The notes beneath the pieces were generated by a model. The model worked only from the letters and a program-made list of their open reading frames with translations, ran no database searches and was not told where the DNA came from. Below, piece after piece: positions 7,024-15,981 of a stretch of 34,558 bases of DNA. The stretch comes from Spirochaetaceae bacterium. GTDB taxonomy: Bacteria; Spirochaetota; Spirochaetia; DSM-27196; SLAA01. The stretch spans positions 1 to 34,558 of the forward strand of contig PUOW01000271.1 in NCBI GenBank assembly GCA_003552185.1, written 5' to 3'. The stretch's first letter is position 1. Every line of letters begins with the position of its first letter. Made by a program: the position numbers and the translations under genes.

Positions 7024-9366
7024 TTACCGTTCGGCCTCCGGGCCACGGCCGGGTTCAAACAGGTAACACGCCACGGTGTGGCGCGGTCCCACCCGGTAAT
7101 GCTCGGGCTCGGGCTGCTCCGGGAAGCTTATCCGAACGGTGCGCCCTTCGGCCGCGATCGAGTCTACCGCCTGCTCGATCGGCTGATCGTGCTCCTCCAT
7201 AATGCGACGGGTAAGCGCAATCACCTGCTCGGCCTGGGCGTCGGGCCCGATCGTGAGCACGAGGTCGTGGTTCTCGAGCTCGGCGCGCTCAACGGCGTCT
7301 CGAAGCTCGCGGTAGCGTTCATCGTGATTCTCTTCGATCAACAGCTTCAGGTCGCGACCCTCGAATCCGCAGTGTGGCAGCGCAAACGGACACCGGCGAT
7401 GGAAGCGACATCCGTTCGGGATGTTCAACGGATCCGGAATCTCACCGCGTGCATCGACATGTTTGCGCTCGAGATCCGGATTGGGACTCGGCACCGCTGC
7501 GGTTAAGAGGCGTGTGTAGGGATGTCGCGGCCGCTCGATCACTTCTTCGGTGGGGCCTAACTCCGCCAGGCGCCCGAGGTACAGGATCGCGGTGCGGTCG
7601 CAGATATAGCGGATCGTGGCCAGATCATGCGAGATATACACGATCGACATACCGAGCTCTTCACGGAAACGCCGAAAGAGGTTGAGCACGCCCGCGCGGA
7701 TCGATACATCGAGCATCGAGACCGGCTCGTCGGCGATCAGCAGCGCCGGGTTGCTCACGATGGCGCGCGCAATCGCCACGCGCTGTCGTTGCCCGCCCGA
7801 TAGCTCGTGCGGGTAGCGGTCGAGGAACTGCTCGGCCGGGTGAAGTTCCACCTGCCGGAGGACCTCGGCCGCGAGCTCGTAGCGGTTCTCGGCCGTGCCG
7901 ATCCCGAAGTTGCGAAGCGGCTCGCGAATGGTTTGGAAGATCGTGAACCGAGGATTCAGCGTTTCGTACGGATCCTGAAACGCCATCTGAACCTCGCGGC
8001 GCAGCTCAGAGCGAAACTTCCCGTTGCTGAACAACGCGGCTCCGCGGTACGCGACCGACCCGCCGGTGACGTTCTGGAGCCCGGTAATCACCTCACCGAG
8101 CGTGCTCTTCCCGGAGCCGCTCTCACCGGCGAGTCCAAGGATTTCGGCTGCGCCCACCTCGAAACTCACGCCGTCGAGCGCCTTTACGACCGCGCTCCCG
8201 CGTCCACGAACGTTGTCGAGTACGCTGCGCTTGAGCTTGAACCATCGGAGAAGATCGGTAACCGTCAGGATCTCATCGCGTTGTTCGCTGAGCCGATCCC
8301 CGGCGAGCCGCTCCACCGGTTGCGCGCCGCTCTGCAGGCGCGCGGCCCGGTCCTCGGTTTGGGCGGCTTTTTGCCACTGAAGCTGCTCACCGGCCGCGCG
8401 CCGAAACTCGGCGGCGTTCTCGGCGTAGTGGCAGGCTGCGTAATGGTCTTGTCCGATATGGCGCAGTTCGGGAGTCTCGATGCTGCATTTCTCGGTCGCG
8501 AACGGGCAGCGTGCGGCAAACGGGCATCCCGGAAGAGCGACCGCAAGATCGGGTGGCGAGCCGGGAATCGAGATCAGCTCGCCTTTTGCGCTCTCGAGCG
8601 TTGGAAAGGCGTTCAGCAGGCCGATGGTGTAGGGGTGCGCTGCCTCGCTGAACAGGGTAGAGGTGGGTCCCACCTCCGCCATGCGACCGGCGTACATCAC
8701 CGCGACGCGCCGGCACATCTCCGCGACCAGCGAAACGTCGTGTGTGACGAGGATCATGGAGTTCCCGAGCTGCGACTGTATCTGCTCGAGCTGCTTCAGA
8801 ATGCCGTCCTGCACCACCACATCGAGCGCGGTGGTCGGCTCGTCGGCTATGATCAGCTCAGGGTTGAGCGCGAGCGCGAGCGCGATCACGGCCCGCTGAC
8901 GCATACCTCCCGAGAGCTGATGGGGATAAGACTTGAGGCGTTTCGGTTCGAGCCCTACGAGCTCGAACAACTCCGCCGCGCGCCGCATTCCGGCCTGCGC
9001 GCCGAGTTCGGTATGCAGCTGCAATGTCTCGAGCATCTGGTTGCCGACGGTGTAAACCGGGTCGAGCGAGTTCATCGCGCTTTGCGCCACCATCGAGATC
9101 TCACGCCAGCGAACCTTGCGCATCTCGGGTTCCGGCAGAGCGGTGAGGTCGCGCCCCTTAAACATGATCCGGCCGCCGGCGATGCGGGCGTTCGGCCCGT
9201 TGATCCGCAGCAGCGATTTCGAGAGCGTCGTCTTCCCGCAGCCCGACTCACCTACAAGCCCCAAGTTCTCGCCGCGCTCGAGCGAAAGCGAGACTCCGTC
9301 TACCGCGCGAACCTCCTGTCCGCGTGAGCTGTAATAGGTCTTGAGTTCCTGTATCTCAAGCAGCAT
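7024..9366 (-). CDS. Fused double ATPase of a peptide/nickel-type ABC importer
   Basis: A 780-residue protein joining a DppD-like and a DppF-like ATPase. First half: Walker A GESGCGKT near 39-46, signature LSGGMRQR near 150, Walker B ELIIADEP near 169-176, switch His in LVTHD. Second half: Walker A GESGSGKS near 413-420, signature LSGGQRQR near 521, Walker B ALLIADEP near 540-547, switch ISHD. Each half ends in an oligopeptide-transporter C-terminal domain with four cysteines: C280, C286, C293, C311, and C652, C658, C665, C766 (positions within a residue or two). The last spacing is stretched by a charged, helix-rich insertion of about 80-90 residues (about 675-755). All catalytic motifs are intact. 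GAGGAG precedes the ATG and the gene starts three bases after the permease stop. It powers the importer encoded upstream. Confidence 0.93.
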   Translation of the reverse strand: MLLEIQELKTYYSSRGQEVRAVDGVSLSLERGENLGLVGESGCGKTTLSKSLLRINGPNARIAGGRIMFKGRDLTALPEPEMRKVRWREISMVAQSAMNSLDPVYTVGNQMLETLQLHTELGAQAGMRRAAELFELVGLEPKRLKSYPHQLSGGMRQRAVIALALALNPELIIADEPTTALDVVVQDGILKQLEQIQSQLGNSMILVTHDVSLVAEMCRRVAVMYAGRMAEVGPTSTLFSEAAHPYTIGLLNAFPTLESAKGELISIPGSPPDLAVALPGCPFAARCPFATEKCSIETPELRHIGQDHYAACHYAENAAEFRRAAGEQLQWQKAAQTEDRAARLQSGAQPVERLAGDRLSEQRDEILTVTDLLRWFKLKRSVLDNVRGRGSAVVKALDGVSFEVGAAEILGLAGESGSGKSTLGEVITGLQNVTGGSVAYRGAALFSNGKFRSELRREVQMAFQDPYETLNPRFTIFQTIREPLRNFGIGTAENRYELAAEVLRQVELHPAEQFLDRYPHELSGGQRQRVAIARAIVSNPALLIADEPVSMLDVSIRAGVLNLFRRFREELGMSIVYISHDLATIRYICDRTAILYLGRLAELGPTEEVIERPRHPYTRLLTAAVPSPNPDLERKHVDARGEIPDPLNIPNGCRFHRRCPFALPHCGFEGRDLKLLIEENHDERYRELRDAVERAELENHDLVLTIGPDAQAEQVIALTRRIMEEHDQPIEQAVDSIAAEGRTVRISFPEQPEPEHYRVGPRHTVACYLFEPGRGPEAER

Positions 9367-9369
9367 GCG

Positions 9370-11046
9370 TTATCTCCTCGAAAGCCGTGGGTTGGCGATC
9401 ACCTCGAGCGCGCGCGAGATGAAAAATACCGATACCACGCTCAGCATAATGAGCACGCCCGGCGGAACCACCCACCACCAAGCGGTGCGCCACGCGCCCG
9501 ACAAGCGGGCTTGATGCAGAATCGTTCCCCAGGAATACAGCCGTGGCGGGCCGAGCCCAAGGAAGCTCAAGGTCGCCTCGGCGGTGATCGCAAACGCCAT
9601 CGCTACCGCCAGCTGCAGAAACGCGAGCGGCAGCACGTTCGGGGCGATGTGCTTGTAGATGATGCGAAGGGGCGAAGCACCCGCGATGCGCGCGGCTTTC
9701 ACGAACGGTCGGTCGGCAAGCGACAGCACCTGCGAGCGGATGATGCGCGCGGTGGTGCGCCAGGTGAGGAGCCCTACCGCAAGAATAATGATATGAATGC
9801 CGGGCCGCCACAGCAGCACCAGAACCATCGCGAACGGCTCGAGCGGGAGCGCGTACATGATATCGACGATCCGCATCAGCACGTTGTCGGTGCGCCCGCG
9901 TAAATACCCCGAGAACAGCCCGACGTTTGTGCCGATTACCGTGACCATCACCGCCGCGACGAACCCAACCAACAGCGCGGTACGGCTGCCGTGTATCACC
10001 TGACTGTAGATGTCGCGCCCGTTGTGCGTTGTGCCGAAAAAATGATCCGCCGAGGGCCGCGCGAGCGAGTTGATGTAGGGGTCGGTGCCTACTACTACGG
10101 TGGTCTCGCCGTCGCTCGTGATACCGCGGAAGTGACGACTGTAGCCGGTGGCCACCTGCTCCCAGGAACCGTCGACCCTGCGCATCATGTCGCCGTGGGT
10201 TCCCACTACCTGCACCTCATCGGCGCTCACCATCGCGATCGAACGCAGCGTGCGTGTCAGGACGCCTTGTTCCTCGCTCCATTCGCCGTCGCGGTAACGC
10301 AGAACCGTCCCGCGCTCACCGACGGCGTACCCCGCGCTTCGGTCGTAGAACGTGACGTTCAAGAGGTCGCGAAAGGTCGGCGAAGCAACCTCCTCCAAAC
10401 TCTCGCCGTCGAAACGCAGCAGCGTCCCGCGCGCGCCGACCGCGTAGCCGTAATCGGGCTCCAGCAGTGCAACCGCGCTAAGGTCTCGCGCCACCGGAAC
10501 CTCGAGCTGCGACCAAGTTCCGTCCTCGAGGTGCAGCGCGGTTCCGTCGGCGCCCACCGCCACCGCGGTGCCGTCTTCGGTCAACGACACACCGAACAGG
10601 TCGGCCTCGCTCGGGATATCGACCTGCTCGAACTCGCCGTCGCCGTACCACAGCACCGTACCGTTGTGACCCACCGTGATCGAGCGCCCACCGGCAAACG
10701 AGATCGCGCGGAGCGTTTCGGTGGTGGGTGTCTCGATATCGCTCCATGCGCCGTCGGCGTACCGGATGACCACGCCCCCGGCTCCGGCCGCGATGTAGTT
10801 CTCGGGCCCGTCGGCCGAGACCGAGTATAAGGTATCGGCGGCGATACCTTCCTCCAGACTCACCTGCTCGCCGTGAACCCAAAGCGCCGTGCCTTCAACG
10901 CGTTCGGTCATCACGTAGGGGTCGTGCGTCGCGAGCAGCGGCGCAAGCAGCGCCACCAGCACCAGCAAAACGACCACAATCACGCCGAAGGTCGCGAGGC
11001 GGTCCTGCGCGATAGACCTCCAAAGCAGCAGAAACAACTCTCGCAT
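9370..11046 (-). CDS. DppC/OppC-type permease with inserted seven-repeat propeller-like domain
   Basis: A 558-residue protein, twice the usual 280-300 of the family. Residues 1-45 hold the first membrane helix and the family's start of the first extracytoplasmic loop; residues 323-558 hold the normal permease core with loop PSADHFFGTTHNGRDIYSQV, five further helices and the ATPase-contact EAA loop (KAARIAGASPLRIIYKHIAPN). Between them, about residues 48-318 form seven copies of a 38-39-residue repeat with consensus V-G-x-x-G-T-x-L-x-x-x-x-G-x-W and a hydrophobic strand, as in BNR/YCF48-like beta-propellers. The insertion lies in the loop facing the periplasm, beside the docking site of the binding protein. 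Frame is open throughout and codon use resembles the neighbours. The start at 11046 is one base after the upstream permease gene. Confidence 0.92.
   Translation of the reverse strand: MRELFLLLWRSIAQDRLATFGVIVVVLLVLVALLAPLLATHDPYVMTERVEGTALWVHGEQVSLEEGIAADTLYSVSADGPENYIAAGAGGVVIRYADGAWSDIETPTTETLRAISFAGGRSITVGHNGTVLWYGDGEFEQVDIPSEADLFGVSLTEDGTAVAVGADGTALHLEDGTWSQLEVPVARDLSAVALLEPDYGYAVGARGTLLRFDGESLEEVASPTFRDLLNVTFYDRSAGYAVGERGTVLRYRDGEWSEEQGVLTRTLRSIAMVSADEVQVVGTHGDMMRRVDGSWEQVATGYSRHFRGITSDGETTVVVGTDPYINSLARPSADHFFGTTHNGRDIYSQVIHGSRTALLVGFVAAVMVTVIGTNVGLFSGYLRGRTDNVLMRIVDIMYALPLEPFAMVLVLLWRPGIHIIILAVGLLTWRTTARIIRSQVLSLADRPFVKAARIAGASPLRIIYKHIAPNVLPLAFLQLAVAMAFAITAEATLSFLGLGPPRLYSWGTILHQARLSGAWRTAWWWVVPPGVLIMLSVVSVFFISRALEVIANPRLSRR
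10093..10905 (-). repeat. Seven in-frame 39-codon repeats coding for a propeller-like insert
   Basis: Repeat units start at protein residues 48, 87, 125, 164, 203, 242 and 281 of the permease, that is near minus-strand positions 10905, 10788, 10674, 10557, 10440, 10323 and 10206. The spacing is 38 or 39 codons throughout. Middle units begin VGHNGT, VGADGT, VGARGT, VGERGT and VGTHGD. The DNA copies are diverged, so the array is old and held by protein selection. Confidence 0.88.
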
Positions 11047-11047
11047 C

Positions 11048-12037
11048 TTACACCCCCGCCCCTTGGCTCGAGTAACTCACGCGCGGGTCGAGCTTTCCGT
11101 ACACGATATCGGCTGCAAAGTTGAGCAACAGAATGATTGTGGCCATAAGCATGAACGCCGCCTGCGCGAGTGGGTAGTCGCTCGTTCGCACCGCGTTAAA
11201 CATCTCCAACCCTAAGCCCGGCCAGGAGAACACAACCTCTACCACAACCTGACCCCCGACCGCGAGGCCGGCCGTTATCGCGGCTTGTGTTACCACCGGC
11301 AGAAGCGCGTTACGGGCTGCGTGGCGATACATGATGCGCGCTTTCGAGAGCCCGCGTGCTTCAGCGAACTCGATGAAATCCTCGCCCATAACCTCGAGCA
11401 TGGTGTTGCGCATGATCAGCATCGGAAGCCCGGTGTAGTACAGCGAGATCACGATTGTGGGCAAAATAAGGTGATGCAAAAAATCGAGCGTAAAGATTTT
11501 ATCGAAGAAGTTCGCTGCTTCGTACGGGAAGGTTCGCATCCCGCTGGTGGGAAACCACCCGAGTTGGATCCCGAACAACATAATGAGGAGCATGCCGACC
11601 CAGAACATCGGGGCCGACCGAAACACTAAGCCGGTTGTTATCCCTCCCGCCTCGAGCCTCGATCCACGCTTCCAGGCGAGCAGCACGCCGAGTAGCGGCC
11701 CCACTGTATACGATATCAAGATTGCCGGGAGCATAAGGATCAGGGTGTTCGCCACGCGCTCACCCACGATCGCGGTGACCGGCGCGTTGTAGTGAAACGA
11801 GCGGCCGAACTCGCCGGTGAGAACGTTCCCGAGGTACATGACGTACTGCATCGGCAACGACCGGTCGAGGCCAAAGCGTTCGGTGACGATCGCTCGGTCT
11901 TCGGGAGAAAGGCCGTCGGTGACTAATGCGACGGTTGGGTCCGGAAGGCCGAGGCGAAACAGAAAAAACAGCACCGTCAAGATAACCCAGAGCGTGAACA
12001 GCATCTGGAGCAGCTTGCCGACGATATACCGTGCCAT
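11048..12037 (-). CDS. DppB/OppB-type permease of the same importer
   Basis: A 329-residue membrane permease with the normal family layout: first helix near 8-30, long periplasmic loop (TDGLSPEDRAIVTERFGLDRS), five more helices, and the ATPase-contact EAA motif FIEFAEARGLSKARIMYRHAARNA. The family C-terminal VEVVFSWPGLGLEMFNAV is intact. The open frame extends to 12148, but the ATG at 12037 has AAGGAG nine bases upstream and gives the standard N-terminus MARYIVGKLLQML. Unlike its partner permease it has no inserted domain. It follows the receptor gene after a 131-base gap that contains a strong hairpin. Confidence 0.94.
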   Translation of the reverse strand: MARYIVGKLLQMLFTLWVILTVLFFLFRLGLPDPTVALVTDGLSPEDRAIVTERFGLDRSLPMQYVMYLGNVLTGEFGRSFHYNAPVTAIVGERVANTLILMLPAILISYTVGPLLGVLLAWKRGSRLEAGGITTGLVFRSAPMFWVGMLLIMLFGIQLGWFPTSGMRTFPYEAANFFDKIFTLDFLHHLILPTIVISLYYTGLPMLIMRNTMLEVMGEDFIEFAEARGLSKARIMYRHAARNALLPVVTQAAITAGLAVGGQVVVEVVFSWPGLGLEMFNAVRTSDYPLAQAAFMLMATIILLLNFAADIVYGKLDPRVSYSSQGAGV

Positions 12038-12119
12038 GGTAGGGAGCTCCTTGATACACAGCTCTCGGAGCCGACCGGCCCGTCGTCCGTAGTCGCCGGC
12101 ACGAGAGCAAAGCGAAGGC

Positions 12120-12149
12120 CGTGCCGCGAGCATCGCATCTCGCGGCACG
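12120..12149 (-). terminator. Hairpin between receptor and permease genes
   Basis: An 11-bp perfect stem (12120-12130 with 12139-12149) closes an 8-base loop, 20 bases past the receptor stop codon. There is no T-run, so it is more likely an mRNA-stabilising or partial attenuating structure that keeps receptor transcript in excess, as known for malE-malF, than a full terminator. Confidence 0.55.
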
Positions 12150-14083: not shown

Positions 14084-14596
14084 CTAAGGGTGCCCGGCCG
14101 ATTGATACACTAGATGCATATGGGCTTCAATTCGGTCGGCGAGTTGCTCGAGGTCTTCAAACGCAAACTGGGGAACGTCGTAAGCAACCGGCGTGTCGGT
14201 GACGATCGCAAAAAGCTCATCCTCGTTGCACAGCAAGGGTTCGCCGATATCGGCGCGGTAAACCTCGATTTTGGGCTTATCGGCGCTCTTGTAGCCTTCG
14301 GTCAACACAATATCGATGTCCTCGAGTTTGGCGATGATCTCGTCGAGCGCGTACTCCTGCTCGCGCTTCTCGATCATCGCGAATTTCCAGGGCGAGGATA
14401 TCATCACGACGTCCGAGCCCGCCTCGGCGTGGCGGTAGGTATCCTTGCCCGGCTTGTCGATATCGAATCCGTGGACGTCGTGTTTGACGGTTGCCACCCG
14501 CCGGCCGCGGCGTTTCAATGCAGCGATCAAAGCGCATATCACCGTGGTTTTCCCTTTGCGCGAAGACTTCCCGACAATTGACAACACTGGAATCAT
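14084..14596 (-). CDS. mobB: Molybdopterin-guanine dinucleotide biosynthesis protein MobB
   Basis: A 170-residue P-loop GTP-binding protein of the MobB family, which helps MobA attach GMP to molybdenum cofactor. The nucleotide site reads GKSSRKGKTT (residues 9-18), one residue longer than the usual G-x4-GKT, though such spacing occurs in some relatives. The family stretch RVATVKHDVHGFDIDKPGKDTYRHAEAG (positions about 33-60) and the LTEGYK motif (about 100) are clear. It begins two bases after the moeA stop with a GAAGGAG site, so the two genes form one operon. No mobA is in the window. Confidence 0.9.
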   Translation of the reverse strand: MIPVLSIVGKSSRKGKTTVICALIAALKRRGRRVATVKHDVHGFDIDKPGKDTYRHAEAGSDVVMISSPWKFAMIEKREQEYALDEIIAKLEDIDIVLTEGYKSADKPKIEVYRADIGEPLLCNEDELFAIVTDTPVAYDVPQFAFEDLEQLADRIEAHMHLVYQSAGHP

Positions 14597-14598
14597 TA

Positions 14599-15981
14599 CT
14601 ACTCCTTCTCGAGCTCCGACCGATTCTCGGCCCGGTCCGGCGTGGTTCGGATCGTAGCAGATAACTCGAGTTCGATGCTATCGCCCACCCGCGGCAGCGG
14701 CTCGCCCGGACGCGAAAGCCGAAAGGCGTTGGTTTCGCGGAGTTCTCGGTAGAGGTGTGTCCGCGGTACGGGACGCGCCCGGAGCTCGGCGCCTGCGGTA
14801 TAGAGCTGCATACGCCGGGGTCGCACGGCCACAGGAGAGCGGCCGCTCCTCGCAGCACCGCCGGCGCTTCGAGGCCGCTCGAACGGCTCGGAGAGTTTCG
14901 CGATGATCTTCGGATTCTCCGGCGCGCCGCTGCCGAGCACAATACGCGCGGCCGGTTGCAGGAGCAGCTCGCACACCATTGTCGCGGCGCCGGGGGTGCC
15001 GGGGAGGGCGAAACACGGCGTGCCCTGAAGCATCGTGAAGACCGTTCCGCCTCCGGGGCGCAACGCGAGCCGTGACACCAGGAGTTCACCAGTGAGCTCC
15101 ATGAGCACGCCGCGGATCAGGTCGTGATCGCCGCCGCCGGTGCCGCCTGTGGTCACGATGAGGCTATAGCCGGCGGAGACGGCGTGTTCGATCGCCCGCC
15201 GGATCACGTTTCTTCGGTCGGCAATCGGTGAGGATACCGTCGCCTCGAGGCCGTAGCCGCGAAGCAGGCTCGCGAGGATCGCAGCGCCGTCGTTATACAG
15301 CCGCCCGCCGGTCACCGGCTCACCGGGCTCGAGGAGCTCATCGCCGATGCCGATCACGAGCGCTCGAGGGCGCTCATAAACCGGGAGGGTAGCCTGCCCG
15401 AGCGCGGCCGCAAGGCCGATTATCGACGGGCCGATCTGCTCACCGCGCGCCACCACCGGTTCGCCGACCGAGACCTCGCTTCCGGCCCGGCGCAGATAGC
15501 TCCCCCGCTCCCGCGGTCGTTGTACTGCAATCTCGGTCTCGGCGGAGGCGTCTGCGAGCTCCTCAAACGCCACAACGGCGTCGGCACCTTCGGGAAGCAG
15601 CGCCCCGGTCATCACGCGGATCGCCTCGTTCTTGCCGAGCGGCGGACCCGACGCGGGAAACTTCCCGGCGGAGTCCCCGGCGGAACCTGCGGCGGCCCCC
15701 CCGGCCGCGTCGCCGCCGGCCGTCGCTACCCGGTCGAGGACACGCAGGCGCACCGGTCGCTCCGGGGTGGCTGTCGCGGTATCGACGGCACGCAGCGCGA
15801 ATCCGTCGCGCGTCGAGGTGGTGTCGTGCGGCAAGGCCCGGCCTGCGTACACCGAGCGTGCGGCGAATAGCCCGTCGCATTCGTGAAGCAAACGGTCGCG
15901 GACGCCGCCCGGCGAGAGATGAGAGCCGAGGATGGCGCGTGCCGCCTCTAAGGTAGTTTCCGAACCGGTTGTGTCCTTCAT
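14599..15981 (-). CDS. moeA: Molybdopterin molybdotransferase MoeA (divergent)
   Basis: A 460-residue MoeA-type enzyme, which inserts molybdate into adenylylated molybdopterin. Seen in order: the N-terminal signature ALPHDTTSTRDGFAL (usual PxxDxSAMDGYA), RVMTGALLPEGADAVV, the nucleotide-binding MoCF domain with TTGGTGGGDHDLI, and FALPGTPGAATMV (usual GLPGNPVSA). Several positions differ from the consensus. A Gly/Ala/Ser-rich stretch of roughly 20 residues (about 92-112) is inserted before the MTGA motif and may be a flexible linker. The gene is divergent from hslO, 88 bases away, and co-transcribed with mobB. No molybdenum enzyme or transporter is nearby, though the adjacent importer is a theoretical client. 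Confidence 0.88.
   Translation of the reverse strand: MKDTTGSETTLEAARAILGSHLSPGGVRDRLLHECDGLFAARSVYAGRALPHDTTSTRDGFALRAVDTATATPERPVRLRVLDRVATAGGDAAGGAAAGSAGDSAGKFPASGPPLGKNEAIRVMTGALLPEGADAVVAFEELADASAETEIAVQRPRERGSYLRRAGSEVSVGEPVVARGEQIGPSIIGLAAALGQATLPVYERPRALVIGIGDELLEPGEPVTGGRLYNDGAAILASLLRGYGLEATVSSPIADRRNVIRRAIEHAVSAGYSLIVTTGGTGGGDHDLIRGVLMELTGELLVSRLALRPGGGTVFTMLQGTPCFALPGTPGAATMVCELLLQPAARIVLGSGAPENPKIIAKLSEPFERPRSAGGAARSGRSPVAVRPRRMQLYTAGAELRARPVPRTHLYRELRETNAFRLSRPGEPLPRVGDSIELELSATIRTTPDRAENRSELEKE

Follow-up and report, generated by a model that had tools for sequence, protein, structure and literature searches.

A predicted seven-bladed propeller inserted in the DppC-type permease of a Dpp/Opp-type ABC importer

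Dpp/Opp-type (cluster C) ABC peptide importers, such as DppABCDF and OppABCDF of E. coli, are built of two permeases, a SBP_bac_5 receptor and two ATPases with oligo_HPY tails. ABC importers are textbook modular machines with small permease loops. In E. coli DppABCDF, the receptor caps DppB and DppC, and a scoop motif of DppB enters the receptor cleft (PMC12136057). A large periplasmic domain in one permease subunit of a type I importer has a precedent in MalFGK2-MalE: the P2 domain of MalF, residues 91-271, contacts MalE (PMC3150292). P2 has a fold other than the propeller described here and lies between other helices. A further point of comparison is YCF48/HCF136, a free lumenal photosystem II (PSII) assembly factor. 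YCF48 is a seven-bladed, protein-binding propeller with an arginine patch that forms salt bridges with Asp170 and Glu189 of D1 (PMC10403576).

We analyzed a 34,558-nucleotide stretch, the whole of contig PUOW01000271.1 of a Spirochaetaceae bacterium, here called the window. A first-pass annotation made from the sequence alone had proposed that a DppC-type permease of the window carries seven propeller-like repeats in its first periplasmic loop. This observation is confirmed. The interpretation placed on it is partly supported: the closed seven-bladed propeller, its YCF48/BNR relationship, its place in the first extracytoplasmic loop, the permuted receptor in the same operon and the same layout elsewhere are supported, whereas it is not shown that the domain lies next to the docked receptor or that it acts as a built-in receptor, a gate or a holder for the permuted receptor. 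The importer differs from E. coli DppABCDF and OppABCDF in three respects: a propeller of about 271 residues in permC, a circularly permuted receptor, and fusion of the two ATPases into one 780-aa chain. The features are collected in the table. No description of a propeller in an ABC permease, or of a naturally permuted receptor, was found in literature searches that did not reach most subscription papers; many such permeases already in print had been named beforehand as an outcome that would count against the proposal.

Features of the importer operon in the window (coordinates in the window, all on the minus strand)
Position	Strand	Feature
7024-9366	-	Fused double ATPase (DppD-DppF type, 780 aa); single gene in propeller-bearing operons where the gene is complete
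9370-11046	-	permC, DppC/OppC-type permease with inserted propeller (558 aa)
9403-9924	-	BPD_transp_1 transmembrane domain of permC (residues 375-548)
9838-9840	-	E403 in predicted TM3 of permC; invariant in propeller-bearing permeases, Leu/Ile in most others
10075-10887	-	Inserted, predicted seven-bladed β-propeller (residues ~54-324); absent from the sister permease
10087-10125	-	C-terminal half of split blade 7 (strands A and B, residues 308-320), closing the ring with residues 52-69
10126-10431	-	Arginine patch on the top face: R206, R226, R245, R265, R304, R307 (R187 and R268 more variable)
10840-10893	-	N-terminal half of split blade 7 (strands C and D, residues 52-69)
10915-11025	-	OppC_N/TM1 of permC (residues 8-44)
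11048-12037	-	permB (DppB type); the conserved part starts at Met38 of the listed ORF 11048-12148
11477-11554	-	Predicted periplasmic TM3-TM4 loop of permB (ORF residues 199-224), enriched in propeller-clade-specific residues
12169-13812	-	Circularly permuted SBP_bac_5 receptor (547 aa)

The inserted domain and its predicted fold

The assignment of the locus to the Dpp/Opp type rests on profile matches above curated cut-offs. OppC_N and BPD_transp_1 are found in permC and BPD_transp_1(_N) in permB, the receptor matches SBP_bac_5 (9e-74), and the fused chain holds two stretches each of the ABC ATPase and oligo_HPY regions. Transport of peptides was not assayed. The locus is not GsiABCD, the glutathione importer, by the NCBIfam equivalog cut-offs, as the scores are 456 vs 1077 for GsiA, 85 vs 594 for GsiB, 173 vs 463 for GsiC and 138 vs 484 for GsiD.

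Between OppC_N and BPD_transp_1, permC displays a repeat with a period of exactly 39 residues. The BLOSUM62 self-score at lag 39 is +154, whereas the best of lags 20-59 in 2000 shuffles averages -141 (SD 18) and never exceeds -41, so that chance repeats are rejected. There are six contiguous units of 38-39 residues, plus a seventh that is split between the two ends of the insert. A profile search against the BNR/YCF48 families, one of the checks proposed with the original observation, was positive: Pfam finds HVO_0234-like and YCF48 propeller families above their curated cut-offs, with hits to PF23366 (1.9e-9) and PF14870 PSII_BNR/YCF48 (5e-8; 33.0 bits vs a gathering score of 27). The score of 33.2 bits is far below the cut-off of 326 bits for the NCBIfam YCF48 equivalog, PRK13684. 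A profile built from 31 inserts found YCF48 first (5ojr, E 1e-21), and PSII_BNR hit 21 of the 31 inserts singly. Unlike YCF48, the insert is embedded in a transporter of prokaryotes that are mostly not oxygenic phototrophs.

Structure prediction, for which the absence of a propeller had been set as a refuting outcome, gave a closed ring. AlphaFold2 with 55 relatives returned a mean pLDDT of 89.9, with block means of 92-97 through most of residues 52-320. Twenty-eight strands make seven four-stranded blades. Blade 7 takes strands A and B from the C-terminal end of the insert and strands C and D from the N-terminal end, a molecular closure. Both chain ends therefore leave the ring at the B-C junction of blade 7, on the same face. 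Foldseek matched the transmembrane part to E. coli DppC (8z1w_B, E 1.8e-14) and the insert to a designed seven-blade propeller (7bif, TM 0.83 on target) and to YCF48. A cytoplasmic location, also named in advance as contrary evidence, is not indicated: OppC_N homology and the positive-inside rule place the N-terminus in the cytoplasm and the insert in the first extracytoplasmic loop, between TM1 and TM2.

Six spirochaete genomes of the same order carry a propeller-less sister importer (loci L138-L143), which shows the empty site. The receptor of this importer is permuted and colinear with that of the window (39-43% identity), permB is ~50% and the transmembrane part of permC 55% identical, the loop is short and ordinary, and the two ATPases are separate genes. 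Aligned with L138, the window permease has one clean insertion between EG(S/T) and the stretch leading into PS...FGTT-GRD. The first-pass annotation is corrected in small ways: the insert is about residues 54-324 rather than 48-318, the ordinary loop from TM1 to the GTxxxGRD motif is about 25-30 residues rather than about 50, and the Trp of the repeat motif is present in only some blades. The six other DppC permeases found in the same genome match the query only in its transmembrane part, and in the four whose loop was read it is ordinary.

Distribution and history

The search for the same layout elsewhere, likewise suggested at the outset, identified about 65 loci in the genome collection, from a scan seeded with query peptides. 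Recurrence in independent loci rules out an assembly artefact or a frame accident. Receptor, permB, propeller-bearing permC and fused ATPase occur in this order wherever contigs allow. Carriers come from about ten bacterial and archaeal phyla: Spirochaetota, Thermotogota, Atribacterota, Actinomycetota, Bacillota, Chloroflexota, Deinococcota, Pseudomonadota, a candidate division and Bathyarchaeota. Binning of metagenome-assembled genomes (MAGs) could misplace some of these, but cultured strains of Halanaerobium, Rhodobaculum, Mesorhizobium, Aquamicrobium and others hold the layout. As read from isolate codes, over 40 of 66 loci appear to be soda-lake MAGs.

Sampled frequencies, in which the query's centre genome is included each time, are as follows. 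The layout was matched in 6 of 9 genomes of the window's own family at E 1e-50, in 2 of 295 in the order of Rhodobaculum, in 13 of 59 in the class of Halanaerobium, and in 1 of 151 in the phylum of the Bathyarchaeota carrier. In a phylum sample of 296, the window's own genome was the only one with a match near 1e-100; other hits were weaker, and those opened were not permeases. The patchy pattern suggests horizontal transfer.

A maximum-likelihood tree of the transmembrane domain, using 230 columns of that one domain, places all 66 propeller rows in one clade (support 100/98; one change; 0 of 500 shuffles as low). This clade lies inside a larger one (100/100) that also holds 12 plasmid-borne permeases without propeller. 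The ten full-length receptors checked among those twelve are colinear with the window receptor, that is, permuted in the same way. When the propeller-less spirochaetes were added in a quick FastTree run, they became the sister group (node support 0.999; the propeller clade itself 0.75). Thus, permutation came first, and propeller and ATPase fusion came later, on the branch to the clade, with no order resolved between those two; the propeller was acquired once. In most propeller-less relatives the ATPases are encoded by two genes. The idea that the permuted receptor and the propeller arose together is rejected, as permuted receptors occur without propeller in haloarchaea, alphaproteobacteria and the sister spirochaetes.

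As to the source of the propeller, a search for a donor gene in the same genome gave only one weak hit (8.8e-6). Other spirochaete hits of the insert profile, loci L100-L109, were examined with the four operon proteins and showed no permease; the remaining hits were not examined. L100 lies in a spirochaete genome with long ORFs that have multiple propeller matches close to the profile of this insert (4.6e-49) and are not permeases; these are possible donor-type proteins.

The receptor itself is a natural circular permutant of the SBP_bac_5 fold. Residues 216-535 of the window protein align with AppA 24-345, and residues 49-180 with AppA 366-493. AlphaFold2 gave a mean pLDDT of 83.5, but the other four models scored only 55-65, so this model is less secure than that of the permease. 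Foldseek, which aligns in chain order, covers only about 350 of 547 residues against ordinary receptors, as expected. The receptor's conservation, 72% mean column identity over 22 sequences, suggests one shared substrate.

The arginine patch and possible roles of the propeller

The insert is strongly acidic, with a net charge of -28 in the window and -7 to -53 in the family. It nevertheless keeps an arginine patch: R206 is present in 53 of 55 sequences, R226, R245 and R265 in 54 each, R304 in 52 and R307 in 50. All lie in D-A or B-C loops, that is, on the face from which the membrane linkers leave. Loops of this face are more conserved than those of the other (0.482 vs 0.375, permutation p 1e-4; 0.459 vs 0.378 without Gly). 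The profile alignment places VGxRG and fRdL on YCF48 VSSRG and TSRRL. By spacing, our own matching, these are YCF48 Arg196 and Arg219/220 of the patch that binds D1 carboxylates (PMC10403576). The predicted TM3-TM4 loop of permB holds 7 of 21 propeller-clade-specific residues (p 5e-4, one of four segments tested), five of which are also absent from the propeller-less sister. This hypergeometric test and the permutation test above are uncorrected and partly post hoc. Six acidic residues fixed only in propeller-clade receptors, D53, D177, E178, D225, D413 and E434, are candidates for salt bridges but are not clearly more than expected by chance.

The insertion, the predicted fold with its split seventh blade, the single clade, the fixed operon and the conserved arginine patch on the linker face are demonstrated by sequence or model, and we hold this structural and evolutionary part as close to certain. 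What follows on mechanism is inference. We tentatively favor, as the most likely role but short of an even chance, that the propeller sits beside the pore entrance with its arginine face toward the membrane side and works as an extra docking platform in the manner of MalF-P2. In this view, it would hold the permuted receptor, the TM3-TM4 loop of permB, or both, through salt bridges to carboxylates, so that delivery stays efficient in salty, alkaline surroundings. The holder reading is favored by the arginine patch and the MalF-P2 precedent. No complex with the receptor and second permease was modelled and neither coordinates nor PAE were inspected; the orientation of the domain is unknown, and its contact with the receptor and its function were not tested. 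In addition, the propeller is not needed to handle a permuted receptor, because propeller-less relatives use permuted receptors too, and E. coli DppB already has its own scoop motif for the receptor cleft.

The main rival, which we consider unlikely, is that the propeller is a second, permease-bound receptor or a gate, whose arginine face binds carboxylates of the substrate itself, for example γ-glutamyl peptides, and passes it to, or withholds it from, the pore. If so, the permuted receptor would hand over the substrate and the importer would have a two-step extracytoplasmic relay. The carboxylate binding of the YCF48 patch, the clade-specific E403 and a γ-glutamyltranspeptidase beside the operon in 10 alphaproteobacterial loci agree with this reading. 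Nothing shows the patch near the pore or a ligand in it, however, and a dedicated, highly conserved receptor is always encoded where the contig reaches. Docking of another extracytoplasmic protein that feeds the importer, such as a peptidase or the γ-glutamyltranspeptidase, is also unlikely: peptidase-type neighbors exist and YCF48 is itself a protein-binding propeller, but no single neighbor is conserved across the clade and most loci have other neighbors. No more likely is a mainly structural role, in which a rigid cap stabilizes the permease or its assembly in haloalkaline media, as YCF48 helps assemble PSII. The acidity of the insert and the soda-lake bias of carriers would fit. Against it are the strong conservation of a specific surface, the presence of the layout in genera not tied to soda lakes, such as Mesorhizobium and Aquamicrobium, and the lack of the insert in the other DppC permeases of this genome.

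The clade shows three rearrangements in one operon, in a partly resolved order and with the empty-site sister available in related genomes. It offers a natural experiment on how receptors dock to importers and on how a propeller with a YCF48-like carboxylate-binding patch was reused outside photosynthesis. The number of loci, cultured strains included, makes it testable.

Neighboring genes

The substrate class is inferred from neighboring genes. The γ-glutamyltranspeptidase-type gene of the ten alphaproteobacterial loci is found in both orientations; the cluster was defined by BLAST, and one member was confirmed by Pfam. M20, M24 and amidohydrolase genes are found elsewhere. Propeller-less relatives have M28, M20, TldD, oxoprolinase, D-aminoacylase and γ-glutamylcyclotransferase genes. 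Small peptides are likely substrates; γ-glutamyl compounds are a guess.

In the window, MobB and MoeA genes (14084-15981) lie directly upstream of the operon on the same strand, and MoeA is seen at the same place in a close relative (locus L014). Molybdenum uptake was considered on this basis but was not retained, as MoeA was seen beside the operon only in close relatives. In Neorhizobium galegae plasmid pNgVX (locus L096, 7098-8693), one annotated CDS of 531 aa spans permB and permC, next to a receptor annotated at only 392 aa, indicating either a fusion or a frame disruption.
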